Shown here: positions 21,239 to 42,700 of the stretch, piece by piece | How the letters are laid out: each line of letters starts with the position of its first letter | Position numbering within the stretch: the first letter of the stretch is position 1 | DNA from: a virus | IMG/VR virus record: IMGVR_UViG_3300030102_001231 | Coordinates: 574 to 57,457 of that record | Direction: 5' to 3' (one strand) | Length of the DNA: 56,884 nt | Translations under genes and position numbers: made by a program | Notes under the pieces: generated by a model | The model's input: the letters and a program-made list of their open reading frames with translations, nothing else | What the model was told of the DNA's origin: nothing | The model's database searches: none

Positions 21239-21267
21239 TTGACATTACCTGTGTAACATGTTATAAT
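21239..21267 (+). promoter_or_regulatory. Consensus sigma70 early promoter
   Basis: TTGACA (21239-21244), 17-bp spacer, TATAAT (21262-21267): a perfect match to both hexamers at the optimal spacing. It drives the early plus-strand operon starting at 21317. A perfect 10-bp palindrome TAACATGTTA (21254-21263) overlaps the -10 element. Confidence 0.9.
21254..21263. promoter_or_regulatory. Palindrome over the early promoter -10, candidate operator
   Basis: TAACATGTTA is a perfect palindrome covering the spacer end and first bases of the -10 box. A bound dimer would block host RNA polymerase. Short palindromes can arise by chance in AT-rich DNA. Confidence 0.4.
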
Positions 21268-21316: not shown

Positions 21317-21577
21317 TTGAGAAGATACAAACCAGTCCGCAAGCCACGGCGTCCCGCACGTCCGTTCCGCGCACTTTCTGTGCAGCCCACACTTGGGCAA
21401 GAGCGCATGGTCGCACATCGTGAGATGTATCCATCGCGCAAGCTGTCACCCCCGACAGCCGAATCTAGTACAGCCCGTACTAAAAATGAGCAGTCCACAT
21501 TCACTGTGGCACCTGCCTACAACAAGGGCGCGTATCAAGTGATACCTGCGTCTGACATTCAATACATTGGGAAGTAA
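21317..21577 (+). CDS. 86-aa basic protein, first early gene
   Basis: Probable TTG start at 21317 with TTGGAGG 9 nt upstream; no in-frame ATG occurs before codon 31. The N-terminus is strongly basic and Pro-rich (MRRYKPVRKPRRPARPFRAL). No domain recognised. As the first product of the strongest promoter it may be a host-takeover protein, for example binding nucleic acid or host RNA polymerase; this rests only on position and charge. Confidence 0.65.
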   Translation: MRRYKPVRKPRRPARPFRALSVQPTLGQERMVAHREMYPSRKLSPPTAESSTARTKNEQSTFTVAPAYNKGAYQVIPASDIQYIGK

Positions 21578-21948: not shown

Positions 21949-22143
21949 ATGAACTTAGAAAAAGTAACAGGGGGTATCGCCCTCTTCTCAGGTCTTATGA
22001 CCTACATAGTATTACTAGGTGTGGTCGAGGACATCGCCGTGCCTGTAAGCCATACACACGCAGCAACCTTCTGGGTGTGTTTCACCGCGACTGTGATGTT
22101 CGCAGTCGTTCACTTTCTTTGCAGATTGGAGAACCGCAAATGA
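21949..22143 (+). CDS. Small two-span membrane protein
   Basis: 64 aa with two hydrophobic stretches, residues ~8-28 (GGIALFSGLMTYIVLLGVV) and ~40-58 (ATFWVCFTATVMFAVVHFL), a short polar loop with PVSHTHA, and a basic end (CRLENRK). Ribosome binding site AAGGAA. Its stop overlaps the next start (ATGA). It is in the early operon, away from the lysis genes, so a membrane-based early role such as superinfection exclusion is possible; no direct evidence. Confidence 0.75.
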   Translation: MNLEKVTGGIALFSGLMTYIVLLGVVEDIAVPVSHTHAATFWVCFTATVMFAVVHFLCRLENRK

Positions 22144-23195
22144 TTACTGAGTTTGGAAAACTTATAACCGAGGAGCCAGCAATGGACGAGCATGAAGAGT
22201 TGAATAAGATCAACGAGGAGGAACAAACGGTATTCCCGTTTGCCCAAGAAGAAGTTAGTGTGGATTACACTGAATTACAGGACATACAGTCCTCGACAGT
22301 CAGTGCGCCCACCATGCGTGAAGCAGCAGCAGTCGTAACCTTTCATACAGGTGTGTGGAACAACCAACGACGTGACCTCAAAGCCACAGCCCAGATCAGG
22401 CAAGCCAACGGTCTGGCTACCGAAGGTGTGTTTGGCGGTAAGATACTATTGCCTCACTGCAAATCCTTTCTGGAAGCCAAGCGACTCAGTGGCCTAGCGC
22501 GTAACACGTATTACCGTGCAACCAAGCCGTGGGTAAAAGGTGGGGGCGCAATGCCCAACCAAGACATACCCTCGTTCATCACAACCATGACTGCGATCAA
22601 GAACGACTTTGAGCGTGCAGCAGATCAGTTTGTGTGGGTCGATTACGATGATGCGGTAGTTGATGAACAGGTGCGGCTACAGGGTAGCGTGGACAGTCTG
22701 TTCAACCCTGACGATTACCCGCCCAAGGATGAGCTTCGTAAGATGTTCTACATCGACTTTGAGATCCAGCAGATCACACCCGACTGGCGCACCGACGTGG
22801 TGGACGAGGGCCATGAGGTTATCAGTGACTTCTACAAGAAGCAGCACACCAAGCTGATGCAGGGGTTCTCAAAGACCATCATGGGTGAACTAACGGGTAA
22901 GCTGGTTACGCTATCTGAGAGGTTGGCATATTCCGGTGTAAGTAGTACCAAAAATCCCAACTACAAGAAGTGGGGCGATCCAGTGTTGAACAATGTGGTG
23001 GACATGATCGACGTGCTGGAGCGGTTCAACTTTGGTGGTGACAACACCATGAGAGAGATTAGGCGGCAACTCAACCAAGCCCTACAAGGGCGAACCCTGA
23101 CAGCAGACATGCTCAAGACAAACGAGAGTTTGCGAGTGACAACTAAACAACAAATTGACGAAGTGTTGTCTGCACTTCCGTCACTAGACCAATAG
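22140..23195 (+). CDS. DUF3150-like partner of the AAA/VWA module
   Basis: 351 aa from ATG 22140 (GGAGAACCGCAA leader; a longer frame from 22077 lacks such a site). It has an acidic N-terminus, a conserved-looking TFHTGVWNNQRRDLKATAQI at ~67-86, LPHCKSFLEAKRLSGLARNTYY, and a helical C-terminal half (LMQGFSKTIMGELTGKLVTL). Gene order before a MoxR/CobS-like ATPase and a VWA protein, and the NTYY segment, recall the DUF3150 family found in such phage modules. Role unknown, probably substrate or adaptor for the ATPase. Confidence 0.65.
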   Translation: MITEFGKLITEEPAMDEHEELNKINEEEQTVFPFAQEEVSVDYTELQDIQSSTVSAPTMREAAAVVTFHTGVWNNQRRDLKATAQIRQANGLATEGVFGGKILLPHCKSFLEAKRLSGLARNTYYRATKPWVKGGGAMPNQDIPSFITTMTAIKNDFERAADQFVWVDYDDAVVDEQVRLQGSVDSLFNPDDYPPKDELRKMFYIDFEIQQITPDWRTDVVDEGHEVISDFYKKQHTKLMQGFSKTIMGELTGKLVTLSERLAYSGVSSTKNPNYKKWGDPVLNNVVDMIDVLERFNFGGDNTMREIRRQLNQALQGRTLTADMLKTNESLRVTTKQQIDEVLSALPSLDQ

Positions 23196-23214
23196 CTGAA
23201 ACAAGGAGAACCAA

Positions 23215-24315
23215 ATGAACTCAGCAGAACAAATGTACGCAGTCGGCTTGAACGACATTGTAGATACCCTGATGGATACAGGTACGGACGTGACCTATCT
23301 TATCCAAGGGCACATGGGTACCGGCAAGTCAGAGCTTCTTAAGATGCTTATTAAGAAGTTAGGCGCAACACACTTGGGTTGCTACTTCGACTGCACGACC
23401 AAGGACTTGGGTGACATCACCATACCAAACATAGCCAAGATGGATGATGGCACAGGCTACGTGACGTATCTGACCAACGAGGAACTGGGTATGCACGTCA
23501 ACAAGCCCATCGTCCTGATGCTCGATGAGTACGGCAAAGCGAACAAGGCTGTTAAGAACTCGCTGCTACGTGTGATCTTAGAACGGAAGATAGGCAGCTA
23601 CGAGTTACACCCTGACTCAATCGTGTTTGCGACAACCAACCTTGGTGCAGAGAACGTGGGCGACAAGCTAGAACCACACCAACGCAATCGTGTGTCTACT
23701 CTGTTGGCACGCAAGCCAACGGCAGAAGAGTGGCTGGTGGACTTTGCGATCCCGAACGAACTAAATCCTAGCGTTATGGGTTTCGCCAAGGAGTACCCAC
23801 AGATCTTCCAAGGCTTCGAAGAAATTAAAGATCCATCGGATAACCCGTACATCTTTCACCCACGCGAAGATCGTGCGGCGTTTATCACACCAAGGTCGTT
23901 GCACACAGCGTCCAAGATACTGACCAAGGGCGTCAACATGAGCGAGCACGCACTGCACGCAGCGTTGATCGGTGCCATCGGTGCGCGTGGCGCTTTGGAT
24001 CTTATGGCGTTTGTGACTATGGCAAACCAACTGCCATCCATCGAATCCATCAAGCAAGACCCAGCGGGTGCCAAGGTGCCAGACGGTGCGAGCGCGGTGT
24101 GTATGACGGTGTTCAAGGTGTTGGGTGCGATGGAGCGTGAGCTAATCAACCCTTGGATGGAGTACATGGGGCGACTCAGCAAAGAGGCACAGGCTATGTT
24201 TGTGCAGGGCGCTATGAACCCCGACTACAAATTCCACACTGAGATTGTCCGCAACGGCAAGTTTGGGCAGTGGGCCATCGAAAACAACTACATGTTCACA
24301 GCAGACAAGAAGTAG
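23215..24315 (+). CDS. MoxR/CobS-type AAA+ ATPase
   Basis: 366 aa. Walker A GHMGTGKS (residues 32-39, K38), Walker B LMLDEYGK (D104, E105), sensor 1 FATTN (138-142), then HQRNRVSTLLARKP as the arginine-finger/sensor 2 region and a C-terminal helical domain with ITPRSLHTASKIL. This order is typical of MoxR-like ATPases such as CobS, which act as chaperones or metal-insertion motors together with a VWA partner. Good GGAGAACCAA leader. The adjacent VWA-metallopeptidase gene starts 9 bp after its stop. Confidence 0.88.
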   Translation: MNSAEQMYAVGLNDIVDTLMDTGTDVTYLIQGHMGTGKSELLKMLIKKLGATHLGCYFDCTTKDLGDITIPNIAKMDDGTGYVTYLTNEELGMHVNKPIVLMLDEYGKANKAVKNSLLRVILERKIGSYELHPDSIVFATTNLGAENVGDKLEPHQRNRVSTLLARKPTAEEWLVDFAIPNELNPSVMGFAKEYPQIFQGFEEIKDPSDNPYIFHPREDRAAFITPRSLHTASKILTKGVNMSEHALHAALIGAIGARGALDLMAFVTMANQLPSIESIKQDPAGAKVPDGASAVCMTVFKVLGAMERELINPWMEYMGRLSKEAQAMFVQGAMNPDYKFHTEIVRNGKFGQWAIENNYMFTADKK

Positions 24316-24324
24316 GAGAACTAT

Positions 24325-25626
24325 ATGTTTGGAGCAGTGACGGCAGAACAACGACTAGAGAAGAACGTCGTTAAGATCTTTTCAAATCCGAAATACGCAG
24401 CGCTCTCTGGAGTGCTGTTGATCGGCGAACGTAGTGTGGATGACACCATACCTACAGCGTGTACCAACGGGCGCGACGAGCGGTATGGCCGCGAGATGAT
24501 CGACGCACTGTCGGATGCAGAGCTACGGTACGTAATCTTGCACGAAGTACGGCACAAGCTGTACCGACACTTGAAAACGTGGAAGCACTTGAACGACATC
24601 AACCACAGTCTAGCGAACGCAGCGTGTGACTACGTTATCAACCTAGAACTGAATGATGAGAACAGCGATGACGGGTTTGCCGTTATGCCATCGGGTGACT
24701 ATCAAGGTCTGGTGGACGAGCGGTTCCGTGGTATGGACTCAGCACAGGTGTTCAACATACTTCTTAACGAACAGTCCGAACAACCCGAACTTCCTGAAGT
24801 GCCCGGAGGAGGTGGACAAGGTACATCGGGTGTAGGTACTCAAGCAGGAACTTCCCAACAAGGGTGTTCTAACCCCACGGGTAACGACAACACACCTGTA
24901 GGTTTCGATGACCACGATTGGGAGGGTGCGCAGCAGCTTACCGATGAAGAGAAAAAGGAGCTAGACAGACAGATCGACCAAGGCATACGGCAGGGTGTGC
25001 TGGCTGCGAACAAGATGCGTGGCTCTGGCAAAGGTGGGCATGGTATCAATCTGGAGGATTTGTTGAAGCCGCAGATCTATTGGCTTGACGTACTGCGAGA
25101 GTTTGTAACCGCAACGTGCAGCGGCAATGACTACTCAACGTACAACAGACCCAACCGCAGATATATGCACGCGGGTATGTACTTACCAAGCGGCATCAGC
25201 GAGACGGTCGAAGAACTTGTGTTCGCTGTCGATACGTCTGGATCATGCTTCAACAGCAGAGAGCTTACAGGCTTTATGACTGAGGTGGTGGATGTGGTCG
25301 AGACGGTAGCGCCAGAACGTGTACGCATACTGTACTGGGGTAGCCACATTGTTGAACCGGAAGAAGTTTACGAGCAGGGTGACTACGACAACCTAGTAAA
25401 AGCTACCAAGCCGAAGGGCGGTGGTGGCACCAATATCAACTGTGTGGTGGAGCACATCAAAGAAAACAAGATCGACGCGCAAGCAGTGATCGTGTTGACC
25501 GATGGGTACTTGGGTGGCGATTGGGGCGAGTGGAACTGTCCTGTTCTATGGTGCATCCAAGACAACCCACGCGCAGTACCCGACTGCGGCAAGATGCTGC
25601 ACATCAGAACTTCAGATCTAGTGTGA
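24325..25626 (+). CDS. VWA-domain protein with N-terminal metallopeptidase motif
   Basis: 433 aa. The N-terminal domain has VILHEVRHKLYRH (HExxH at 73-77) followed by ANAACDYVINLEL (D102, a likely third ligand): a DUF2201-type putative zinc metallopeptidase. Residues ~150-200 are a Gly/Gln-rich linker. The C-terminal VWA-like domain has an intact MIDAS: DTSGS (303-307), T369 in GGGGTN and LTDGYLG (D393). Together with the upstream MoxR ATPase this is a MoxR-VWA pair. It would bind divalent metal and deliver or process a target protein. GGAGAAC leader. Confidence 0.85.
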   Translation: MFGAVTAEQRLEKNVVKIFSNPKYAALSGVLLIGERSVDDTIPTACTNGRDERYGREMIDALSDAELRYVILHEVRHKLYRHLKTWKHLNDINHSLANAACDYVINLELNDENSDDGFAVMPSGDYQGLVDERFRGMDSAQVFNILLNEQSEQPELPEVPGGGGQGTSGVGTQAGTSQQGCSNPTGNDNTPVGFDDHDWEGAQQLTDEEKKELDRQIDQGIRQGVLAANKMRGSGKGGHGINLEDLLKPQIYWLDVLREFVTATCSGNDYSTYNRPNRRYMHAGMYLPSGISETVEELVFAVDTSGSCFNSRELTGFMTEVVDVVETVAPERVRILYWGSHIVEPEEVYEQGDYDNLVKATKPKGGGGTNINCVVEHIKENKIDAQAVIVLTDGYLGGDWGEWNCPVLWCIQDNPRAVPDCGKMLHIRTSDLV

Positions 25627-25654
25627 ACCACACTAAAAACTTAAGGAGAATCTA

Positions 25655-26674
25655 ATGCATACATTCGATCAAGTAGCAGAGAAGTATCACAGCACCAAGC
25701 CTGTGATAAGCAAGAACCACACAGTCGAGCAGGACGTTCGACCGATAGGTAAGCGGTATAGGAAGTGGGAGCGCATCAAGAAGGTGAGCGATGACATGTA
25801 CCTGTTTATAGATAGCTACGGTTACGGCGATGACGTGTTTGGCCGTGAGTGGGCGGGGGGTGTAACCAACCCAACCATAGATGAGCAGATAATGCTCGCG
25901 CCGATGGTGTGGTTCAGAAACGCGGAAGGTGAGTCGTTCTTGAAGGTACGCAACGGCACTGGACTAGACCATGCGCACACTGGGCGGTACTACTTCCTTA
26001 CAGAGTTTCTACCTAGAGGTCTTAACTTTGTAGTGGAAAAGGGCAAGCAGTATGTATCTGCTAGGGGTAAGGATGGAATGCTCAAGCGGCACTACCTCCC
26101 CAAGTCTGTTACGTGTGGGCCTACAGTTAAAGCAAATATGGATTGGTTGCTTCAAAACGGAATGCGGTATGCCTACCACACCGTTAGTAAGTATGAGGCC
26201 GAAGATGACGAGGCGTTTCTAGTGTTTCAGTGTGTGGGTGATCGTGTATGGCAACTTATAAGTGAGCCACTAGCCGAGCCTGTGAAGCAGACCCGTGTGG
26301 ATAAAGAAGCTAAGGCCAAACTGAAACCATATTTAGATACATTCTGGGAGTGGGCTTGCGCCTACGCACCGCTGCTACCGACGTTTGACTATCAGTATGT
26401 CGGTAAACAGTTGGAGATACTGAATAAGTACAATCTGATCGGCTCTGCGCATTGGCACTCTGATGTGCATTTTCATTCAGAGGAAACCATAGAAGTGCTC
26501 AAAGATGTTAAGCACGAAGCAGCGCTTCCGTTGCTGGTGTTTTACCTAAGCGAGTCGGACTTAAAGGACGCAGCAGACATCGAAGATCTGCGTAAGTGCC
26601 GTGCGCACTTTAACAACTGGGCCAACCGAGTGTGCGGTCTGGTAACTACAACTACTGTTTACAAAGGGAACTAA
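25655..26674 (+). CDS. Unknown protein linked to the AAA/VWA operon (339 aa)
   Basis: 339 aa starting MHTFDQVAEKYHSTKPVISK, with RPIGKRYRKWERIKKVSDDM, then an aspartate/Tyr-rich loop (DSYGYGDDVFGREWAGG), WFRNAEGESFLKVRNGTG and a C-terminal helical half (FYLSESDLKDAADIEDLRKC). No catalytic signature recognised. The leader is AAGGAGAATCTA and the gap to the VWA gene is 28 bp, so it is probably in the same operon. Confidence 0.7.
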   Translation: MHTFDQVAEKYHSTKPVISKNHTVEQDVRPIGKRYRKWERIKKVSDDMYLFIDSYGYGDDVFGREWAGGVTNPTIDEQIMLAPMVWFRNAEGESFLKVRNGTGLDHAHTGRYYFLTEFLPRGLNFVVEKGKQYVSARGKDGMLKRHYLPKSVTCGPTVKANMDWLLQNGMRYAYHTVSKYEAEDDEAFLVFQCVGDRVWQLISEPLAEPVKQTRVDKEAKAKLKPYLDTFWEWACAYAPLLPTFDYQYVGKQLEILNKYNLIGSAHWHSDVHFHSEETIEVLKDVKHEAALPLLVFYLSESDLKDAADIEDLRKCRAHFNNWANRVCGLVTTTTVYKGN

Positions 26675-26676
26675 TT

Positions 26677-27567
26677 ATGAGCATCAATAGATATTTTCAT
26701 CGCGTGTCGGAATTGACAAAGGATGGGTTTACTGGGGGCGAAAAGCCTATCGAGTGGAGAAATATGGTGAGTGTGGTGGAGGACATGGGGCTTTCGGTGG
26801 CTAAGTATGACTATCAGACTTTTGCGGTCTATAAGCCTGACGAGCACTTCATCCGTGGGATCATTGGTTACGGTAACTTCTTTGACCACTCCGAAGCAGA
26901 TAAACCTGATCGCTTTATGGTGGGTGCTAGGCATATCCGTAACGGGCGTTACAAAGGACGTAGTAGGCAATACACCATGCGGTTGAGTAAGAACTTAGAC
27001 GTAGCCGCCAAAGCAGCGAGAACTTACTTCACACCTGTGAGTGTGTTGGAAATAGTACGTCATTACGTGAATGATGTTCGGGACGCACATAACAACTTGA
27101 AGGACGATAGAGTTACGAAGAGGCGTGCGGCTACTGATAAGTTTCTCGTCCGTGGTGACTACGAGTTACGTAATTCACCTAAGTTTATGGACGAGCTTTT
27201 GAATCTTGTGAACTCCAACTACATATTCAAGGATGCTGAACTCAAAGCGAGCATCAAGGAGTGGGCGGAATACCATAAAGATATTAAGTTTATGGAAGAG
27301 AGGCAGCACACCATGCGGATTATTATCATGGAGCACGGCAAGATCAAGGTCACAACGCCGTTTGATCCTATGAACTGCGTAGCCACCAACGGCGCATCGT
27401 ATCCCATTAAATCTAACCTTGAGGTTGATTTTACTGAGTACCCTGTAAAGGAGGCACTTCCTCCAGAAATACTTAGCAAGCTAGCGGTTCTGTTTGTCGT
27501 CGAGGAAGGTAGGTTTACACCTGATGTCGGCGTGCGGCTGAACGATGAGGTGCTGTGTGTTTACTAA
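26677..27567 (+). CDS. Unknown early protein (296 aa)
   Basis: ATG 26677 has AAAGGGAACTAATT upstream; an in-frame upstream start within the previous gene is less likely. The protein begins MSINRYFHRVSELTKDGFTG, is basic and helical in the middle (YTMRLSKNLDVAAKAARTYF; VRHYVNDVRDAHNNLKDDRV) and ends with VVEEGRFTPDVGVRLNDEVL. No family recognised. It is tightly linked to the 339-aa gene (2-bp gap) and overlaps the next gene. Confidence 0.7.
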   Translation: MSINRYFHRVSELTKDGFTGGEKPIEWRNMVSVVEDMGLSVAKYDYQTFAVYKPDEHFIRGIIGYGNFFDHSEADKPDRFMVGARHIRNGRYKGRSRQYTMRLSKNLDVAAKAARTYFTPVSVLEIVRHYVNDVRDAHNNLKDDRVTKRRAATDKFLVRGDYELRNSPKFMDELLNLVNSNYIFKDAELKASIKEWAEYHKDIKFMEERQHTMRIIIMEHGKIKVTTPFDPMNCVATNGASYPIKSNLEVDFTEYPVKEALPPEILSKLAVLFVVEEGRFTPDVGVRLNDEVLCVY

Positions 27568-27862
27568 GAAATCTAGTGTGGAACACACTGAAAAGCTAAG
27601 ACTAAACAGCGCTCTGGCTAAACACGTTATGCAACCAAACCATACTTCATACCTTGTCTCGACTGATGAGGTAATAAAAGTACAGTGTATTGGTGTAGGA
27701 TGTGTTGACTCAAATGTACAAGAGGTGTACCGTAGCGTCAAAGATATGCCAAATTGGTTGCAGACCAAGATCGCAGTCTTGGCGGTTGCACCAGAAGGAT
27801 ACTCTATGGATGGCATAGGACGTAAGATCTCAGAGACTACGTTCATGGTTGAAGTAGATTAA
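27545..27862 (+). CDS. Conserved small phage protein, unknown (105 aa or slightly less)
   Basis: The frame opens at ATG 27545 and overlaps the previous gene by 23 bp; a GTG at 27557 with GAGG 6 nt upstream is an equally good start. The core YLVSTDEVIKVQCIGVGCVD, VQEVYRSVKDMPNWLQTKIA and APEGYSMDGIGRKI look conserved and resemble a short family I recall from marine phages. No function known. An AGTGTG-GAA-CACACT dyad lies at 27575-27589 within it. Confidence 0.65.
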   Translation: MRCCVFTKKSSVEHTEKLRLNSALAKHVMQPNHTSYLVSTDEVIKVQCIGVGCVDSNVQEVYRSVKDMPNWLQTKIAVLAVAPEGYSMDGIGRKISETTFMVEVD

Positions 27863-28880: not shown

Positions 28881-29050
28881 AGATCTTATTTGAGATAGAA
28901 GAAAGTGACGTAGAACGACTGCTAGACACGCAGAACGAAATGTTGGACACACTAATTCGCATAGAACGATTGCTTAAGGAATTAACCAATGGCTACGACA
29001 CCGGAAGCAAAAGTAAAAAGAGTCGTAGCTCAGCAGCTACGCGAGATTAA
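28877..29050 (+). CDS. 57-aa helical protein
   Basis: ATG 28877 overlaps the previous stop. The product is MKILFEIEESDVERLLDTQN, then a helix (MLDTLIRIERLLKEL) and a Ser/Lys-rich tail. Its 3' end overlaps the VRR-NUC gene by 62 bp in another frame, so the tail is probably less constrained. Function unknown. Confidence 0.55.
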   Translation: MKILFEIEESDVERLLDTQNEMLDTLIRIERLLKELTNGYDTGSKSKKSRSSAATRD

Positions 29051-29273
29051 AGCATACTACTTTTACCCAGCGACAGGAGGCTACGGTAAGAGCGGAGTGC
29101 CCGACATAGTGGGGTGCTACAAGGGTAAGTTCTTTGGGATCGAATGTAAGGCAGGGAAAAACAAACCCACAGCACTGCAGGAAAAGAACCTTAAAGATAT
29201 TACAGAAAGTAATGGCATCGCTTTGGTGGTGAATGAAGCGAATATGCACAACATTACAAAACTACTAACTTGA
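28989..29273 (+). CDS. VRR-NUC domain nuclease
   Basis: 94 aa. Stand-alone VRR-NUC (PD-(D/E)XK superfamily): an N-terminal helix (KVKRVVAQQLREIKAYYFYP), then GVPDIVGCYKGKFFGIECKA carrying D39 and the catalytic E-x-K (GIECK), followed by LQEKNLKDI and a C-terminal strand/helix. Acts as a structure-specific endonuclease, probably on branched replication or recombination intermediates, working with the polymerase, helicase and RecB-like nuclease encoded downstream. Confidence 0.85.
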   Translation: MATTPEAKVKRVVAQQLREIKAYYFYPATGGYGKSGVPDIVGCYKGKFFGIECKAGKNKPTALQEKNLKDITESNGIALVVNEANMHNITKLLT

Positions 29274-29850: not shown

Positions 29851-31680
29851 GTGGATCTTATAACTGTAGATTTTGAGACGTACTACAGTAAGGATTTCTC
29901 ACTGTCGAAATTGACCACAGAAGAATACATACGTGATCCTCGCTTTGAGATCATCGGTGTAGCTGTGAAGGTAAACAATGGGCCGACAGAGTGGGCCAGT
30001 GGTACACACGAAGAATTTAGAGAGTATTTCAATGACTTTGATTGGGCGAACAGTATGGTATTGGCTCACAACACCATGTTTGATGGGGCTATATTGTCTT
30101 GGCTATTTGATATTCGCCCTCGCGCTTGGGCTGATACTATGTGCATGGGGCGTGGCTTACATGGCGTGGAAGTTGGTGCAAGCCTCAGAGCGTTATCAGA
30201 ACGATACGAAGTCGGCGAGAAGGGAACCGAAGTGCTCGACGCGCTCAGTAAACGGCGCGAGGACTTTACAGCGTCAGAACTAGATAAGTATGGCGACTAC
30301 TGCATCAACGATGTAGAACTGACTTATAAACTGTTCTCGATAATGAGCCAATCGTTTCCCAAGAAAGAACTTAAAATAATAGACTGCACACTGCGCATGT
30401 TTATTGAGGCCCGTCTTGAACTGGATCTTGGCCTGTTGGAACAACATCTAATCAGCATACGTGATCGCAAGGACGAACTATTAGAAGCCGCAAACATAAC
30501 TGACAAAAAGCAGTTGATGAGCAACGAAAAGTTTGCAGAACTTCTTATAGAGCAAAGTGTGGTGCCTCCCACTAAAAAAAGCCCAGCGACAGGCAAAAAG
30601 ACCTATGCGTTTGCTAAAACAGACGAAGGGTTCAAAGCACTAGCGGAGCACGATAATGTGAACGTGCAAGCCTTAGTAGCTGCGCGTCTTGGTAACAAGA
30701 GCACGTTGGAAGAGACACGGACGCAGCGTTTCATAGACATTGCGAAGCGTGGAACTTTGCCGGTTCCAGTGAGGTACTACGCAGCGCATACGGGTAGATG
30801 GGGCGGGTCAGATAAGATCAACCTACAGAACCTACCGAGTCGTGGGCCTGACGGTAAGATGTTAAAGAAAAGCATCATGGCCCCCGAAGGTTACATGCTC
30901 ATAGACTGTGACTCATCGCAGATTGAGGCGCGTGTACTAGCGTGGTTTGCTGGGCAAGACGATTTGACCGAAGCATTCCGCAACAAGGAAGATGTCTACA
31001 TCAAGATGGCCGCACGGATATACGACGTGCGAGAAGAAGACATAACTCCACAGCAGCGGTTTGTCGGTAAGACCACAATACTTGGCGCTGGGTATGGTAT
31101 GGGCGCTTTGCGCTTTCAAGCACAGCTTAAAAACTTTGGGGTTGAACTACCTTTAGAGCAGTGCCGTAGAGTTATTAGTATCTACCGTGATGTTAACTGG
31201 AAGATCAGCAAGTTATGGCGCGATGCTAATGTTATGCTGGAAGAGTTGTCTAAGAACACAGTGGTCAATATAGGCGAGAAGGCTGTTATAGAACCTATAG
31301 CTGCGTTACAAGGTGTGCGGCTGCCATCAGGTCTAATAATGCGATATGAAGATCTTAAGGCTGAGCAAAACGAAAGAGGGCTAGAGTTCACATACAAGAC
31401 TAGACGAGGCCGCACCAAGATATACGGCGGCAAGTGTGTAGAGAACATATGTCAGGCAGTGGCACGTTGCATCATAGCCGATCAGATGCTACTAATAAGT
31501 AAGAGATACGCACCCGTACTAACGGTGCATGACTCTATAATAGCGTGCGTACCAGAGGAAGAAGTTAGTGAGGCACAGCAGTATATTGAAGAATGTATGC
31601 GGTTCGTGCCAGATTGGGCAGAAGGACTGCCGCTCGATTGCGAGAGTGGTGTGGCTAGAGCATATGGGGATTGTGGGTAG
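29851..31680 (+). CDS. DNA polymerase, family A
   Basis: 609 aa from GTG 29851 (no ATG nearby; GGGGGGTTAAG upstream). The N-terminal 3'-5' exonuclease has TVDFETYYS (D7, E9), AHNTMFDGAILSWL and DYCINDVELT. The polymerase domain has motif A DSSQIEAR (D354, E359, R361), motif B RFVGKTTILGAGYG (R403, K407, Y415) and motif C TVHDSI (D561), all catalytic residues present. Shorter than E. coli Pol I, lacking the 5' nuclease; comparable to T7 gp5-type replicases. Probably the genome replicase. Confidence 0.92.
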   Translation: MDLITVDFETYYSKDFSLSKLTTEEYIRDPRFEIIGVAVKVNNGPTEWASGTHEEFREYFNDFDWANSMVLAHNTMFDGAILSWLFDIRPRAWADTMCMGRGLHGVEVGASLRALSERYEVGEKGTEVLDALSKRREDFTASELDKYGDYCINDVELTYKLFSIMSQSFPKKELKIIDCTLRMFIEARLELDLGLLEQHLISIRDRKDELLEAANITDKKQLMSNEKFAELLIEQSVVPPTKKSPATGKKTYAFAKTDEGFKALAEHDNVNVQALVAARLGNKSTLEETRTQRFIDIAKRGTLPVPVRYYAAHTGRWGGSDKINLQNLPSRGPDGKMLKKSIMAPEGYMLIDCDSSQIEARVLAWFAGQDDLTEAFRNKEDVYIKMAARIYDVREEDITPQQRFVGKTTILGAGYGMGALRFQAQLKNFGVELPLEQCRRVISIYRDVNWKISKLWRDANVMLEELSKNTVVNIGEKAVIEPIAALQGVRLPSGLIMRYEDLKAEQNERGLEFTYKTRRGRTKIYGGKCVENICQAVARCIIADQMLLISKRYAPVLTVHDSIIACVPEEEVSEAQQYIEECMRFVPDWAEGLPLDCESGVARAYGDCG

Positions 31681-32352
31681 TTGAGTGCTGCGCCTTGGTC
31701 ATTTAGTAGGATTAAGGCATTTCAGCAGTGTCCTAAACAGTTTTACTACGAGAAGGTGGTAAAGAAATACCCGTTTAAGATGAGCGATGCCATACGATAT
31801 GGCGACGAATTTCATAAAGCAGCGGAGATATACATACGCGACGGTGGTGAGTTAGACCCAAGATTTAAGTATGCACAGGGCATGCTTGACGCACTCAACG
31901 CCAAGAAAGGCGAGAAGCTATGCGAAATAAAAATGGGGCTTACTGAAGACTTAGAACCATGCAGCTTCTACGATAGTGACGTTTGGTTTAGGGGTATAGC
32001 GGACTTACTTATCTTAAATAAAGAAGATAAGCTGGCTTGGGTCATTGACTATAAGACAGGCAAGTCGGCAAGATACGCAGACAAGGGGCAGTTGGAGCTT
32101 ATGGCGTTATCAGCGTTTAAGCATTACCCCGAAGTAGAAACTGTCCGAGCGGGGCTTTTATTCGTTGTAAGTGAAGATCTCATAAAAGATCGTTATGCAC
32201 TTGAAGATGAGACCGCGCTGTGGGATAAGTGGATGAATAATTACGACAACATGCAGTCTGCCTTCGACAATGATGTGTGGAACCCAAAGCCCAACGGACT
32301 GTGTAAGCAGTGGTGCCAAGTTCTAGAGTGCCCACATAACGGAAGGAACTGA
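31681..32352 (+). CDS. RecB/Cas4-like PD-(D/E)XK nuclease
   Basis: 223 aa, TTG start at 31681 directly after the polymerase stop. It opens SAAPWSFSRIKAFQQCPKQF (Cys near the N-terminus), then DEFHKAAEIYI, GIADLLILNKEDKLAWVIDY with D-Y-K-T-G-K (motifs D and DxK), LELMALSAFKHYP (QxxxY-like helix), and a C-terminal KQWCQVLECPHN with two Cys. The Cys pattern (one N-terminal, two C-terminal) suggests an Fe-S cluster as in Cas4. Probable exonuclease in replication or recombination. Confidence 0.82.
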   Translation: MSAAPWSFSRIKAFQQCPKQFYYEKVVKKYPFKMSDAIRYGDEFHKAAEIYIRDGGELDPRFKYAQGMLDALNAKKGEKLCEIKMGLTEDLEPCSFYDSDVWFRGIADLLILNKEDKLAWVIDYKTGKSARYADKGQLELMALSAFKHYPEVETVRAGLLFVVSEDLIKDRYALEDETALWDKWMNNYDNMQSAFDNDVWNPKPNGLCKQWCQVLECPHNGRN

Positions 32353-32690: not shown

Positions 32691-32703
32691 TTTGGAGAGC
32701 AGC

Positions 32704-34239
32704 ATGAAGGTTGTGGATAACAAAGCCTTGTTGCTTAGGTTGCGTGACCCTAAAAAAGTTACGAGTGTTATACCTAAGAGCAAAGAGCTTCAAGACAACA
32801 AAGTAATTGTGAACTGGGGGCTAGAAGAAGCCCACGTTCTAAAGAACTTAAATATAAATGTGCCTTCCCCGATACGTACACGATACGATTGGACGGGTAA
32901 GCACACACCGATGAAGCACCAGAAGACTACTTCTGAGTTCTTCACTTTGAATAAAAGAGCGTTCTGCTTTAACGAGCAAGGCACTGGCAAAACAGCAAGT
33001 GCTATATGGGCCGCTGACTACTTAATGAGTAAAGGGTATATCTCGCGTGTTCTCGTGATATGCCCACTATCAATCATGGAGTCAGCGTGGATGGATGATC
33101 TGTTCACCTTCGCCATGCACAGAAGTGCGGATATAGCCTACGGCGCTGCAGCTAAGCGTCGTAAAATAATAGAAAGCGGTGCCGAGTTCGTGATTATCAA
33201 TTACGACGGTGTTGAGATAGTGGCTGATGCTATAGCCGCTGGGGGCTTTGATCTAATCATAGTGGACGAAGCTACACACTATAAGAACCCACAGACTAGA
33301 CGTTGGAAGACGTTGAATGCGTTGTTAGCTCCGCACATGTGGTTGTGGATGATGACGGGCACGCCAGCAGCACAAAGTCCTGTAGATGCGTTTGGTCTAG
33401 CAAAGCTGGTCAACCCGAACGCAGTACCTAGATTTTTCAGTTCCTTCCGCGACATGGTGATGCAAAAAGTCACCAACTTTAAATGGGTGCCCAAGGAGAA
33501 CGCTACAGACACGGTATTCAAAGCACTGCAGCCAGCGATTAGGTTTACAAAAGAAGAGTGTCTAGACCTACCAGATATGGTGTACGTCAAGCGCACGGTT
33601 GAGATGACTAGGCAGCAGAAGAAATACTACAAGCAACTTAAAGATACTATGGTCATGCAGGCCGCTGGAGAGCAGATAACAGCAGCCAACGCCGCCGTGA
33701 ACATGAATAAGTTACTGCAGATCTCAAGCGGTGCAGTGTACACAGATGACGGTGACTCTCTAGAGTTTGACATCAAGCATCGCTATAAAGTTCTTCGTGA
33801 GGTGATAGACGAATCAACTAAGAAGGTCTTGGTATTCGTACCGTTCAAGCACGTCATAGATATATTAGCGGACAAACTTATAAACGACGGTATACCCACT
33901 GAGATTATCAGGGGAGATGTAAGTGCTGCTAAGCGCACAGACATATTTAAACGATTTCAAACCAGCGCCTCGCCACAGGTGTTGGTTATACAACCCGCTG
34001 CAGCAGCCCACGGGGTGACACTAACTGCGGCGAATACAGTGGTATGGTGGGGGCCGACAAGTTCACTAGAGACTTACGCGCAGGCCAACGCTCGCGTGCA
34101 TCGCTCTGGACAGGATCACAAGTGTACGGTGGTGCAGTTGCAAGGTTCTTTTGCAGAGAAACGTGTGTACTCATTACTAGACAATAGAATTAATGACCAC
34201 ACAAAAATAATAGATTTATATAAGGAAATACTTGATTAG
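32704..34239 (+). CDS. SNF2-family helicase/ATPase
   Basis: 511 aa from ATG 32704 (TTTGGAGAGCAGC leader). Motif I NEQGTGKT (K96), motif II VDEATH (D188/E189; DEAT instead of DEAH), motif III TGTPAAQ, FVPFKHVIDIL, TEIIRGDVSA and motif VI ANARVHRSGQ with the two Arg. This is a complete SF2/SNF2 core with no additional domains. In phages such proteins act as replication or recombination translocases. It sits between the RecB-like nuclease and the ssDNA-binding gene. Confidence 0.9.
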   Translation: MKVVDNKALLLRLRDPKKVTSVIPKSKELQDNKVIVNWGLEEAHVLKNLNINVPSPIRTRYDWTGKHTPMKHQKTTSEFFTLNKRAFCFNEQGTGKTASAIWAADYLMSKGYISRVLVICPLSIMESAWMDDLFTFAMHRSADIAYGAAAKRRKIIESGAEFVIINYDGVEIVADAIAAGGFDLIIVDEATHYKNPQTRRWKTLNALLAPHMWLWMMTGTPAAQSPVDAFGLAKLVNPNAVPRFFSSFRDMVMQKVTNFKWVPKENATDTVFKALQPAIRFTKEECLDLPDMVYVKRTVEMTRQQKKYYKQLKDTMVMQAAGEQITAANAAVNMNKLLQISSGAVYTDDGDSLEFDIKHRYKVLREVIDESTKKVLVFVPFKHVIDILADKLINDGIPTEIIRGDVSAAKRTDIFKRFQTSASPQVLVIQPAAAAHGVTLTAANTVVWWGPTSSLETYAQANARVHRSGQDHKCTVVQLQGSFAEKRVYSLLDNRINDHTKIIDLYKEILD

Positions 34240-35663: not shown

Positions 35664-36386
35664 ATGGCTGATACAGCAACACACTTGTTGAAAGGCGTCG
35701 AAGCGCTATATCCAAGGATCGACAAGACTTACCGATGGGACAACGCTAAGAACAAAAGCGTACCGTGCGAAGCTACAGAGAAAGGCGCGGAGTTCTCGCT
35801 TAGCTTTGTTATGAGCACCGATCAGGCTAAAGGTCTGTGGTCTGCTATGAAAGATGCGTATGAAACTAAACGCGCTGATGGCAACAGCAGTTGGCCTGAT
35901 ACGTTTGACCGCCCCTTCAAGAAGGATGAAAACGGTAACTGGACGCATAGATCCAGAACCGAGGGGGCTTTTAACGGTGAAGCTAGCAGACCGCCCTCAC
36001 AGGTGGACGCGAAGAGAACGCCACTGCCTAATGGGTTTATGTTGACCAGCGGCAGCACAATAAACGTGCAGGTGTCTCTACATCCGTACTTTGTAGACGG
36101 TACAGCAGGGGTCAAACTACGACCAAGAGCCGTGCAGGTGCTTAAATATGTGCCTCTGCAGGCTAGAGATCCGTTTGAGGAAGAAGAAGGGTTCACCATT
36201 GAAGGAGGTGATGGCGGTGCATTCGCTGTCGAGTCAACACCAGAACCTGCGGCTGTTACTTCCACAGAAGACGAGTGGGAAGAGGATGTTCCAGTAAAAG
36301 AACCTAAGAAAATGGTGAAGAAGTCTGCAGCTCCAAAGGAAGAAAAAGCATCGGTCACCGCTGTTATTGATGAGTGGGACGACTAG
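35664..36386 (+). CDS. Probable ssDNA-binding protein
   Basis: 240 aa (GGAGAACATA leader). The core from ALYPRIDKTYRWDNAKNKSV to PHPYFVDGT has OB-fold-like alternation; LRPRAVQVLKYVPL follows. The last ~75 residues are an acidic/Pro-Glu linker ending VTAVIDEWDD, an acidic tip as in SSB proteins that recruit partners. I recall phage proteins with a PRIDxxYRFD start annotated as ssDNA-binding. Located between helicase and primase genes. Confidence 0.68.
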   Translation: MADTATHLLKGVEALYPRIDKTYRWDNAKNKSVPCEATEKGAEFSLSFVMSTDQAKGLWSAMKDAYETKRADGNSSWPDTFDRPFKKDENGNWTHRSRTEGAFNGEASRPPSQVDAKRTPLPNGFMLTSGSTINVQVSLHPYFVDGTAGVKLRPRAVQVLKYVPLQARDPFEEEEGFTIEGGDGGAFAVESTPEPAAVTSTEDEWEEDVPVKEPKKMVKKSAAPKEEKASVTAVIDEWDD

Positions 36387-36474: not shown

Positions 36475-39297
36475 ATGCACACCAAGCAATTTTTAAGCAG
36501 GGTGCTAAGTGACACAGGTAACTACTGTGTATTCGCTAACCACCTAGCAAACGACCAAAGAAAACAGATGTTCTTCACGTCGCTAGATGACGTGGTGGAC
36601 ACCGCTAGTGACCTTGATACACAGGGATACGACGTTTATTTTGCATTAGCTACGTTCTCTGAAGCTGGGTCGCGTCGTGTAGATAATACGTTGTCATTCA
36701 AGGCGTTCTTCTTAGATTTAGACTGTGGCCCTAGTAAAGATTTCACAACACAAGAAGAAGCAGTAGCTGAACTACGTAGGTTCTGCAAGATACTTAAACT
36801 ACCTAAACCCCTGATGGTTAACTCAGGGCGTGGGATACACGTTTATTGGGCTTTACAAGAGTCTGTACCTACAGATGATTGGGTGCCTGTAGCAGAGCGG
36901 TTGAAGGCGCAGTGCGCAGAGCACAGCTTCTTAGCAGACCCCGCCGTTACTGCTGATGCAGCTAGAGTTTTGCGTGTAGTAAGCACGCACAACCACAAAA
37001 CTAACCCGCCTAGCGAAGTGGTTATATATGGGGTGGAGCCTCCACCACTTGTAGATTTTGATGAGTTCTCAGAATTACTGGGTAATAACCCACTGCCTGT
37101 ACCTCAACGCAGTCCGCGTAACGGCGTAAATGCTGTAACGCAAGCCCTGATGGGTAACAGCGAGAACAAGTTTGGGACGATAGTAAACAAAATAAAGATG
37201 GAATCTGGTTGTAAGCAACTAGAGATGATAATAAATGACCAAGAAAACTGCTCTGAGCCTATGTGGAGAGCGGGGCTATCTATAGCAAAGTTTTGCTCTG
37301 ATTCAGAAAAAGCAGCGCACTTTATATCTAGGGGGCACGAAGGCTACACACCAGAAGACACAGCGTACAAAATGGACTTGATAAAAGGCCCGTACCAGTG
37401 CATTAAGTTTGATGAGTTCAACCCAAAAATATGTCGAAAGTGCCCGTACTGGGGCAAGATAAAGTCTCCCATAGTGTTAGGCCGACACATAATCGAAGCG
37501 ACTGATAAAGATAACGTAGTAGAAACAGTATCTGCTTCGCTACCAAACGCACCTACTAAAACGTATGTGATACCTGAGTACCCAAGACCATACTTCCGTG
37601 GGGCGAATGGCGGTATATACGTAAGAGCGAACGGCCCAGATGGTGAGCCAGAAGATAAACTTATTTATCATAATGACATATATGTGGTTAAGCGCGTGCA
37701 TGACCCCGAACTTGGTGAATCTGTCGTTATGTGCTTGCACTTACCAAAAGACGGTATGCGTGAATTTACGCTTCCTTTGACTGCTGTTACTTCACGGGAA
37801 GAGTTCCGTAAAAACATGAGCGCTCAAGGCGTAGCTATAAAGAGGATGGATGAACTCATGGATTACACGACTACGTGGGTAAACGAGCTACAGGCTAAGT
37901 CTGTGGCGGAAACCGCCCATCGTCAGTTTGGTTGGACAGATGATGATATGAAGTCGTTTATACTAGGTAACCAAGAGATATTTGGTGACCGCGTGGACTT
38001 CAACCCCCCTGCGTCAAATACTATTTCTATGTTCCCCGCATTTGAATCTAAAGGCACGTTAGAAGGCTGGAAAGAAACAATGGCCTTTCTAAACCAAGAC
38101 GGGCAGGAGGCATATCAGTACGTCTTAGGTGCATCATTCGGCTCCATACTGATGAAACTCATGCCTGTGTCTTGCTCCATGCTTCATCTACATAGCGATG
38201 ATTCTGGGCTTGGTAAAACTACCGCACAATTCGCAGGGCTGGGTGTATGGGGTAATCCAGAAGAACTTATCCTGAGCAAAGAGGACAAATACTTAGCCAA
38301 GATGAATAGGGCTGAGATTTATAACAACCTACCGTTCTTCATGGACGAAGTTACAAACATGAACTCTAGCGAGCTTAGTGATATGGCCTACCAGTTATAT
38401 AGCGGTAAGCAGCGGCGTAGGCTAACTAGCAGTGCAAACATAGAGCGTTTCAATGGGTATGCATGGAGCTTTATGACCGTATCCAGCGCGAACACTAGCC
38501 TGATCGAAAAGATAATGATGGACAAGCAAGCGCCGAAAGCAGAAGCACAGCGCATACTTGAGTACAAAGTAAATAAGCATTACAAGAGTGCAAACACTAA
38601 AGAAGCTACCGATGCATTCGCTCTAGCCCTACAAAGCGATTACGGCCATGCGGGTGTGCCGTTTGTGCAGTACGTCATAAACAACCTAGATGACGTTAAA
38701 GAGTTACTAAAGGCCACGCAGTTGAAGGTGGACTCTAAGGCTGGCTTGGCTGCTGAGAACAGGTTTTGGTCTGCAGGTGCAGCGTGCACGCTTACTGCGC
38801 TGGTGATCTGCAAGAATATGGGCTTATTACCCTACAGCACAAAGAAGGTATATAGATGGATATTGAGCGTGCTAGAAGAAAACAAAAGGAGTGTTGCTGA
38901 TATGAGTAGTTCTGCAGAACAAGTGCTTAATGATTATTTGAACGATCATTACGGTAACGTGCTTTGGATTAAGAGTACGGATGACTTACGAAAAGCCAAT
39001 AACAACGGGCTAGATGAGCTTGTAATACCTGACTTGAACCCACGCGCTAGACTTGTGGCTAGGTATGAAACAGACGTGAAGCGTGCCTACCTTGTGCCGA
39101 AACCGCTGCGAGAGTGGTGTGGTAAGCACCAAGTAAACTACGCATCTTTCGTTCAAGACTTGAAGTCTAAGATGAGTGCTAAAAAGTCAAAGATGCGATT
39201 GAGTAAAGGTACGCATCTACGCCTGCCGCCCACCGACGTTATAGTCGTAGACTGTTCTGTACAATTACCACAAGGAGATGTGGATGAAGCGGTATGA
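36475..39297 (+). CDS. PrimPol-type primase with fused SF3-like helicase
   Basis: 940 aa. The N-terminal archaeo-eukaryotic primase domain has KAFFLDLDCGPS (D81, D83), VNSGRGIHVYWAL (S117-H122) and RVLRVVSTHNHK, the three AEP motifs. A short cysteine knuckle (ICRKCPYWG) links to the C-terminal ATPase: Walker A SGLGKTT (K581), Walker B FFMDEVTNM (D624/E625), and SSANTSL as sensor. So it combines primer synthesis and unwinding. No good ribosome binding site precedes ATG 36475; translation may depend on the upstream structure. Confidence 0.85.
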   Translation: MHTKQFLSRVLSDTGNYCVFANHLANDQRKQMFFTSLDDVVDTASDLDTQGYDVYFALATFSEAGSRRVDNTLSFKAFFLDLDCGPSKDFTTQEEAVAELRRFCKILKLPKPLMVNSGRGIHVYWALQESVPTDDWVPVAERLKAQCAEHSFLADPAVTADAARVLRVVSTHNHKTNPPSEVVIYGVEPPPLVDFDEFSELLGNNPLPVPQRSPRNGVNAVTQALMGNSENKFGTIVNKIKMESGCKQLEMIINDQENCSEPMWRAGLSIAKFCSDSEKAAHFISRGHEGYTPEDTAYKMDLIKGPYQCIKFDEFNPKICRKCPYWGKIKSPIVLGRHIIEATDKDNVVETVSASLPNAPTKTYVIPEYPRPYFRGANGGIYVRANGPDGEPEDKLIYHNDIYVVKRVHDPELGESVVMCLHLPKDGMREFTLPLTAVTSREEFRKNMSAQGVAIKRMDELMDYTTTWVNELQAKSVAETAHRQFGWTDDDMKSFILGNQEIFGDRVDFNPPASNTISMFPAFESKGTLEGWKETMAFLNQDGQEAYQYVLGASFGSILMKLMPVSCSMLHLHSDDSGLGKTTAQFAGLGVWGNPEELILSKEDKYLAKMNRAEIYNNLPFFMDEVTNMNSSELSDMAYQLYSGKQRRRLTSSANIERFNGYAWSFMTVSSANTSLIEKIMMDKQAPKAEAQRILEYKVNKHYKSANTKEATDAFALALQSDYGHAGVPFVQYVINNLDDVKELLKATQLKVDSKAGLAAENRFWSAGAACTLTALVICKNMGLLPYSTKKVYRWILSVLEENKRSVADMSSSAEQVLNDYLNDHYGNVLWIKSTDDLRKANNNGLDELVIPDLNPRARLVARYETDVKRAYLVPKPLREWCGKHQVNYASFVQDLKSKMSAKKSKMRLSKGTHLRLPPTDVIVVDCSVQLPQGDVDEAV

Positions 39298-39746: not shown

Positions 39747-42700
39747 CTAGAAAAAACCTTCAGCTTCTACAGTCGCTCGCGTGGCAGGAGATAACAACAC
39801 ACCGTTGTGCATTCTAGTGGTTGTACGTTCGTGAGCTTTCATAGACCGTTCAATAGTCTCTGGTGTTATAGCCAGTTTTGGATCTTGCTGCACCGCCCTA
39901 GAGTTACTAAATTCAGCCATTTCTAGTCGTATGTTGTCTGCCTCCATGAAATCGCCAAACCGCATTGCTACATAATATCTTTTTAACAATCTTCTTCGTT
40001 TGTTTGCAGCGGCGTCATTCATACGCTTGGCTTTAGAGGACTCTTCCATGTTGTTCATATACTCTGTAGGCGGGAACCCAAGCAACTGCGCGAACAACTG
40101 TCCGCCGGTTATATCGTCGTACATGGGGTCACCTCTACGAGTGAGGATGCCTTCGTCTCTGGGGTATCTACGCAGAGCACGGTAAGCGTTACGTATGGCT
40201 CCCGGTGCCATACCCTCAAACGCTCGCTCCATATCTTCTCCACGCCAAAGATCTTCAAAACTCTCCCAAGCCCTAGAGCCTACGCTCCACGCTGGGCCAC
40301 CAAAGAAGTGCATAAACGACTCTTCGGGTGATGGATTAGAGTTAAATCTGTCTGCTTCAAATAACAAGTTAGTTAACGCCACACGTTTAGATACATCCAG
40401 CCCAGTTACTTCTGACAGAACTCCCTTGTATAGCATCTCGTTGTCTAAAGATCGGCGTACAAACGTCTCAAAGTCTTCTTCTGATTCATCACCTACCAGC
40501 ATGTCGTATATCATTGTGGCTGCGCCGTACAGTGGTAATCCCTGCACCCCTGCTAGCAACAGTGCGGACATATGCACCCCTGCCAACTGCTTAAATGCCA
40601 CTTTAGCTGCCTCTGTGTCCCCACCGTAAGCTGCTTTTGTGCCCTCCCATGCGGTCTTCAGCATCTTGTAGTACATGGTGATGCCGTAGTTCTTATACAT
40701 AAGAGCCACACGACCAACGCCAGAGCGTGCAAATCTTGGCCCAGTTTCTAGGTTAGCCCCGCCGTTTATCTGTTGGGTCTCATACACTGCGTCTGCAGCG
40801 GCTTTCTGTTCTGCTTCTCTTAGTTGAGATTCTGTAAGATCTTTACCTTTTGTAGCCTTGTCCAAAGCAAGTTTGTACGCCGCTACCAATGTGGTTTGGC
40901 GGTTCATAACTTCTGCGGTATGAAACATCAAAGCAGACATATTAGTTATAAAATCGGCTCTACTTATGTCTCTTCCAGAAGTATCTACGCTAAGTGTCTC
41001 TGCTATGAAAGAAGAACCCAACTGCCCACGTCTAGCAGCTAAGCGAACTAGAGGCACCAAGTTTTCAAGCTCCGTCTTCATCTCTTGCGAAAGGTCTAGG
41101 TCTTCTCGCACCGCATATGTAAGTTGACCGTCAGACTCTGTAACTGTGTAGTAGTTCTCCAATGAAGGCTGCGCTTTATCCTGCGTAGCTTCCATAACAT
41201 TTTTAAGTTTATCTCTACCCTTTAACGCTTCTCTTATTGATCTAGCATTACGAGTGCCGCCAAACAAAGTTTCTTGTGTTTGGTTTAGGGGTGTGCCTAC
41301 AAACAACTTACCCGCATCTTTTATAGCCGCACTTGTGTTGGCATAACCATACTTACCAGCGAGCATTGGGTACGCAAAAAGTGGTATCTGAGATAAGTTG
41401 ACCAAGGCAGAAGAGGCATTGAAACCGATAGTCCACAAGAACGCCATGCGGTTTAAGTTCTTTGCAAAGTTGTCTTTGGGCGGGTTCATCGCAAACTTCG
41501 CTCGTTCGCGTATTTCTCTAACTACTTCTGCATCTCCGCCCTTACTTTTTTCTAAAAACGACGTTAGTTTGGACTGAATTATAGCGCTGTTCTTTATGCG
41601 TGAGGCCTGTCTAGCTAGGTCGTAGCCTTTTGTTCTAGCAGCTTCTAATGCATCTTTGTCGTAGCCTTCTGTTTTCTTACGTTTCTGCAGCCCTTTCGCA
41701 AAAGAAGATTCTGGCAGTGATTGTATAAATAACTTAGTTATCTGCTCTCTTGCCGCTTCATAGCCTATTTTTTGGTTTGGTTCTAATGCGCCTACTTGAG
41801 CGTCTAGTGTCCGCAGGACGTTAGCGACAAACGCTGGGGGCACCGAGTCACCCGTATACATAGTTGAGTCATTAGGGTCAAAGATCTCAACGTCCATGCC
41901 CATCTCTGTAAACTCATCTATAGCCATGTTTCTGTCGCCATTGTTCTCAAACGAAAACACGGCAGAATTAGCCTGTGCCTTGGGGTCTTTAACAGCTAAG
42001 AAATATGTACCTTTACGAGTCAGAGGAAAGTATGGGTCTTCTTTTGCTTGTCGCAGTAGTTGACCAAGCAGTTCGTTCTTGAGATTAGTCTTAACTTCTT
42101 GGGGTGCTTCTAGCTCGTCTATCCTACCCTCTAGCGCTTTTAGCAGTTGGTTATATTGGTACTTGTAGAAGTCACGCAGGTTGGTGTACGCCCTTCGTCC
42201 ATCTGGGCCTAACTTATCAAACTCTCTTCTAAGCTCTTTATAGATGGTTAACTTTTTACCTGTATAAGCAGACAAATCTTTTGACGGGTCTACTCCTTCT
42301 ATGGTGCTGATGTATACAACATCGTTAAATCTGTCTCTTATCTCTTTAGTGGCTTTGTTGCCCCACTGCAGTATGGGCAGCAGTTTTCTTCGTGTGACTT
42401 GCTCTGACCTACTAAGATCGCCACGTTGATTTTCTATAGCTTCAAGTACGTCTGTGGCACCGTCTAAACCTAGTGAGTCCGCCCAATCCCCAATACTACT
42501 GTTCGGTAAGAACCCACCTACTACCCTTTTGGCTGCTACAGAAGCAGGGTTTTGGGGGCCAGAAAATATACCCTTTATCCTGTTTGCTAAGACTTTCCTA
42601 CTCGTTTTACTAAACGCGCCCGCAGTGCGGTTCTTCAAAGCCTCACCTATAGCAGCCACTTCTCTAGGCGAAGAACTATTAGATATTGTGCCTAGCCCTC

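Follow-up and report, generated by a model that had tools for sequence, protein, structure and literature searches.

NorQD, CobST, CbbQO, RavA-ViaA and Rea1/midasin all combine a MoxR-clade AAA+ ring with a partner carrying a metal ion-dependent adhesion site (MIDAS). Each acts on targets other than those considered here, and none is known to include a DUF2201_N metallopeptidase domain or DUF3150. Closer still is the pair formed by MoxR and a vWA-metallopeptidase, already described in jumbo phages (Iyer et al. 2021), while VMAP and other MoxR-vWA ternary conflict systems add a third protein to the two (Kaur et al. 2020). Here we describe a six-gene cassette, at positions 22140-27862 of a 56,884-nucleotide viral stretch (hereafter the window), which is part of a 57.4-kb IMG/VR virus contig (IMGVR_UViG_3300030102_001231, positions 574 to 57,457). 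It encodes such a pair together with a DUF3150-like protein and three followers. From sequence comparison we conclude that DUF3150 recurs as a predicted third subunit in two distinct MoxR-VWA subfamilies and that the followers are lineage-specific. The MoxR-VWA pair itself is already known; the DUF3150-like third subunit appears to be the new part, and no mention of DUF3150 was found in the literature searched.

The six genes are intact and all lie on the plus strand. The gene for the DUF3150-like protein (22140-23195; 351 amino acids, ATG start with an alternative GTG start possible at 22077) is located upstream of that for the MoxR-type AAA+ ATPase (23215-24315; 366 amino acids). This is separated, by open reading frame coordinates, by 9 bp from the gene for a VWA co-chaperone with an N-terminal metallopeptidase-like domain (24325-25626; 433 amino acids). 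There follow U339 (25655-26674; 339 amino acids), U296 (26677-27567; 296 amino acids from an ATG start, a 311-amino-acid GTG version being possible) and U105 (27545-27862; 105 amino acids), whose gene overlaps the U296 stop. An earlier note, made from the DNA alone, had reported six such reading frames with an intact MoxR-type gene 9 bp before the VWA gene, and the positions bear this out.

At the nucleotide level the window had no match among phage records. Relatives were gathered by protein: 80 viral loci were fetched with the VWA protein and further loci via U339, U296 and others, homologue families were built by iterated profiles and gene order was then read. The three unknown families and the broad VWA family were sought in contigs with single proteins or close pairs as queries. 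Two arrangements were observed, DUF3150like-MoxR-VWA-U339-U296-U105-nuclease-PolA-exonuclease-helicase and U339-MoxR-VWA-DUF3150like-U296-nuclease-PolA. All 40 viral loci with sufficient flank carry MoxR and VWA together and have their cassette genes on a single strand (40/40 in both cases); 37 include the DUF3150-like gene (25 before VWA and 12 after), 39 the U296 family and 32 the U339 family. Loci retrieved by U339 or U296 alone also contain MoxR, VWA and the DUF3150-like gene unless the contig ends. Conservation of gene order had been set beforehand as a test, and the viral relatives passed it, with two orders on one strand. The core triad of MoxR, VWA and DUF3150-like proteins is well supported.

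The catalytic motifs are also conserved. MoxR carries Walker A (GHMGTGKS, residue 32) and Walker B (VLMLDE, residue 100) motifs and, with G35, G37, K38, D104, E105, N142, R159 and R227 conserved, shows the intact Walker A/B, sensor 1, arginine finger and sensor 2 of MoxR-clade AAA+ proteins; most Walker residues are conserved at about 94-95% among 64-70 relatives. Pfam returned AAA models below threshold only and a bpMoxR match below cut-off; PHROG placed the protein in phrog_1297 (2.6e-42), and the best PDB match of the family profile was midasin (6e-19), with NorQ at 3.5e-5. The VWA protein combines HEVRH (residue 73) with DTSGS (residue 303), and HExxH and DxSGS co-occur by chance in 1 of 20,000 shuffles. 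The claim that one protein unites HExxH and a complete MIDAS holds: H73, E74, H77, D303, S305, S307, T369 and D393 are 100% conserved in the same 64-70 relatives, 70 of them for HExxH and MIDAS, and H82, D102 and N106, beside HExxH and MIDAS, are also conserved, including in the N4, phage G and plasmid homologues. By profile the N4 gp24/gp25 and jumbo-phage pair is homologous (1.4e-40 for the VWA-metallopeptidase and 1.5e-29 for the AAA+ protein) and has the same domain order. An explanation by unrelated neighbours with chance motifs has nothing in its favour except the weak Pfam score of the window DUF3150-like protein (below); contradicted by conserved order, strand and residues, it was rejected and has practically no probability.

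Pfam identifies DUF2201_N (PF13203; E=3e-23, 83.2 bits against a cut-off of 23.2) and DUF2201 (PF09967; E=1e-12, 48.8 bits against 26.4) in the VWA protein, and no HNH domain. Its profile weakly resembles MJ1213 (E 0.018), a minigluzincin. The family corresponds to PHROG 1314, labelled 'HNH endonuclease', and many phage entries in GenBank/RefSeq, that of N4 gp25 among them, carry this as the product name. Judged by domain content, the label looks like a spreading mis-annotation.

The DUF3150 assignment had been made from the window protein, which by itself scores below the PF11348 cut-off (E=0.0049, 16.7 bits against 24.9); at the level of the family the assignment stands, since 25 of 59 members match PF11348 (E<=0.01, best 1.5e-6). 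On profile evidence the window protein is a distant PF11348 homologue and not a formal member. When used in tblastn against phages it gave no match; a relative from another lineage did match phage records. The third protein also separates the cassette from the ternary conflict systems, which likewise unite MoxR, vWA and a third protein but have a different one and are cellular systems of multicellular bacteria; no VMAP, iSTAND, FtsH or beta-propeller domain was found by Pfam among the cassette proteins.

The same association extends to plasmids and bacteria. In Burkholderiales, conjugative plasmids included, the DUF3150-like profile matches proteins located between MoxR and VWA (4e-57), and a bacterial genome scan found the three genes in a row in 48 of 51 loci, the remaining three apparently reflecting contig ends or truncated or disrupted genes. 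These plasmid operons encode three homologous, contiguous proteins, but in the order MoxR-DUF3150like-VWA and with U339 and U296 undetected. Canonical DUF3150 occurs above cut-off in 8 of 398 sampled bacterial genomes, with a CobT-like VWA gene nearby in 7/7 regions, a CbbQ-type AAA+ gene in 6/7, bet and exo in three (of which two resemble each other closely) and ssb likewise in three. The IncC plasmid pSN254 has the order AAA-hypothetical-ssb-bet-exo-DUF3150-VWA. This IncC-type system shares with the window a three-part architecture, a homologous DUF3150 (1.2e-5 with the phage DUF3150-like profile) and a DNA recombination context (ssb-bet-exo), but draws its AAA+ and VWA proteins from other subfamilies (CbbQ_C, CobT). 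Of the 1119 plasmid records that contain DUF3150, 971 are predicted to be conjugative. On chromosomes the phage-type profile hardly occurs (1/398, namely the seed genome itself). In the isolate phage MinM2 the MoxR, DUF3150 and VWA genes follow one another, interspersed with small genes, and the followers differ from those of the window. It is because the phage loci, the Burkholderiales loci, the canonical DUF3150 regions and MinM2 agree that we propose DUF3150 as a recurrent subunit; the pairing of MoxR-VWA with a DUF3150-like partner, as first noted, is supported.

The MinM2 record has the same size as those of Pag-Yong1 and Pra-JY27. Three records (OQ594354.1, OL906435.1 and PP438419.1), each of 65,014 bp, identical where compared and filed under three host names, represent either a single genome entered under different names or contamination. 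Two plasmids from unrelated bacteria, pSYSA and pSna507_unt13, carry MoxR and a DUF2201-VWA gene without adjacent DUF3150, close to DUF262 genes.

Viral MoxR/VWA pairs have been interpreted as CobS/CobT (PMC8651126), and the cassette might accordingly be a metal chelatase helper which boosts cobalamin or inserts metal into a metalloenzyme of the phage or of its host. NorQD and CobST are indeed metal-insertion machines and the IncC VWA protein matches Pfam CobT, but the window VWA protein is a DUF2201 with no CobT match in Pfam, and CobN (PF02514) was not found on the contig although controls were positive. We rejected this reading and regard it as very unlikely.

The three followers reported earlier, of 339, 296 and 105 amino acids, are all present, but the smallest is not independent: U105 is a free-standing copy of the C-terminal domain of U296 (2e-21 with the U296/U105 profile), and in 43 loci the U296 gene and the C-terminal-domain gene have a median spacing of -14 bp, an overlap. 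U339, whose family was found in 54 loci and lies after VWA or before MoxR, is unrelated to U296. Structure prediction, suggested at the outset, yielded confident AlphaFold2 models (predicted local distance difference test scores of 89.5 for U339 and 86.7 for U296, the latter with a beta/alpha N-domain, long helices and a C-terminal domain), but fold searches with both against PDB gave no match, and against BFVD U339 matched uncharacterised phage proteins only. A polo-box hint for U296 (PLK4, 9e-4) was treated as chance, the fold search giving it no backing. The Planktothrix phage Pag-Yong1 has other genes as followers; one after the triad (L182:8051-8828) is labelled anti-CRISPR AcrVA2, a label that we rejected as having no Pfam or PDB support.

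The surroundings of the cassette bear on its target, which the earlier note had left open between defence, envelope and replication. A perfect sigma-70 promoter (21239-21267, plus strand; TTGACA-N17-TATAAT with TG, 12/12 match) reads into it, and promoters matching at least 11/12 positions lie upstream of 26 out of 58 related loci, compared with 7 out of 290 shuffled stretches, the loci not being independent and the shuffles preserving base but not dinucleotide composition. The cassette heads a series of replication and recombination genes that lie downstream, all on the plus strand: a Hjc/endonuclease-like nuclease (28989-29273; PF01870 2e-4, phrog_93 3e-14), a family A DNA polymerase, PolA, with 3'-5' exonuclease (29851-31680; PF00476 1.7e-37), a PD-(D/E)XK exonuclease (31681-32352; PF12705 2e-16, phrog_69), a SNF2-type helicase (32692-34239; PF00176 1e-22, phrog_62 2e-109), a Gp2.5-like single-stranded DNA-binding/annealing protein (35664-36386; phrog_112 3e-15) and a primase/helicase with DUF927 (36475-39297; PF06048 1e-21, phrog_8841 1.4e-37). 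Because it heads these early DNA-replication genes, the cassette is more probably involved in viral DNA metabolism than in the assembly of particles. Two other genes of the region may be mentioned. A small, very basic protein (21317-21577; LRRYKPVRKPRRPARPFR...) is encoded directly behind the perfect promoter, where the presumed early transcript would have its first gene, and a 2042-amino-acid protein (39747-45875, minus strand) is similar to DarB-like antirestriction proteins (phrog_10089, 1e-50).

Assembly has been put forward for the same domain pair in jumbo phages, by analogy with Acidianus two-tailed virus (PMC7824862): the pair would fold or proteolytically mature structural proteins. 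A second structural module near the N4 gp24/25 homologues of roseophages (PMC4193335) is in keeping with this. In the window the pair is not linked to structural genes: terminase, portal, capsid, tail spike and endolysin genes are all on the strand opposite the cassette. The promoter, the position among replication genes, retained in relatives, and the opposite strand of the virion genes disfavour an assembly chaperone; moreover, N4 gp24/25 are middle genes (PMC4193335) and the conjugative-plasmid triads have no virion. We consider this reading improbable.

Rates of divergence differ within the region. With VWA as reference, the rate is 2.0-2.4-fold for U339, U296 and U105, 1.5-fold for the DUF3150-like protein and 0.55-0.88-fold for the replication proteins. 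Distances of MoxR (rho 0.75) and U339 (rho 0.87) track those of PolA and the cassette is therefore inherited with the replication genes. Those of the DUF3150-like protein follow VWA best (rho 0.59), a hint that the two may be in direct contact. The fast divergence of the followers would also suit a counter-defence or host-takeover machine that takes apart or cuts a host protein complex, for example RecBCD or another nuclease, or else a defence system, with target specificity supplied by the followers. The spread of the triad across phages, conjugative plasmids and IncC-type elements, its rarity in chromosomes and the differing followers of Pag-Yong1, one with its AcrVA2 label, point the same way, and SXT lacks gam and has been suggested to have an ExoV inhibitor yet to be identified (PMC2786100). 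Against it, PADLOC models match none of DUF3150, VWA and the followers, with weak partial ATPase matches only, vertical inheritance with PolA is unlike that of typical swapped anti-defence cargo, and the AcrVA2 label is unsupported. This explanation is possible but, in our judgement, unlikely.

The reading that we place first, tentatively and at somewhat less than an even chance, is that the cassette encodes an early three-part AAA+ machine which remodels, and perhaps clips, a replication or recombination protein. From the genes, their conserved catalytic residues, the triad, the early-type promoter, the replication neighbourhood and co-inheritance, all of them observed, we infer that the products form a complex, that it is active and what its target is. 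MoxR would assemble into a ring and, through its ATP cycle, twist or pull the VWA protein, a mechanism borrowed by analogy from NorQD (PMC13036017). The MIDAS site would grip the target, which the HExxH domain of the same protein may nick, with the DUF3150-like protein as adaptor or third subunit. The target would most likely be a phage replication or recombination protein (polymerase, nuclease, helicase or annealing protein) or a competing host factor, and U339 and U296/U105 may serve this machine alone, as rapidly evolving clients or adaptors. A replication or recombination target is favoured by the context, the promoter and co-inheritance; a component of this apparatus would be the most economical choice and host nucleases or defence complexes the main alternative.

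Several observations weigh against this proposal. Gene neighbourhood does not equal target. Unlike the cassette, the Burkholderiales plasmid triads have no obvious replication or recombination neighbour, and type IV secretion system genes adjoin the triad in one plasmid. A promoter scan over the region as a whole showed no enrichment. Finally, in N4, Presley and phage G the pair is present but DUF3150 is not detectable, and the neighbours tested there are not U339 or U296. The third subunit is therefore not essential to every MoxR-VWA pair.

A broader and rather doubtful idea is that AAA+-DUF3150-VWA triads constitute, in phages as well as in IncC plasmids and further conjugative elements, a general machine of mobile elements which shields incoming DNA or passes it on. 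It could do so by remodelling or inactivating host end-processing machinery, the missing Gam role beside bet-exo, or by loading the element's own recombination proteins. The VWA protein of the pair is found, without known function, in hundreds of phage entries, often N4-like, and in many cases is labelled 'HNH endonuclease'. With DUF3150 as a predicted recurrent third subunit in a phage lineage, plasmids and IncC-type elements, the triad becomes a unit open to purification, deletion and testing and, if the DNA-metabolism reading is true, it would represent a new use of MoxR-VWA machines.

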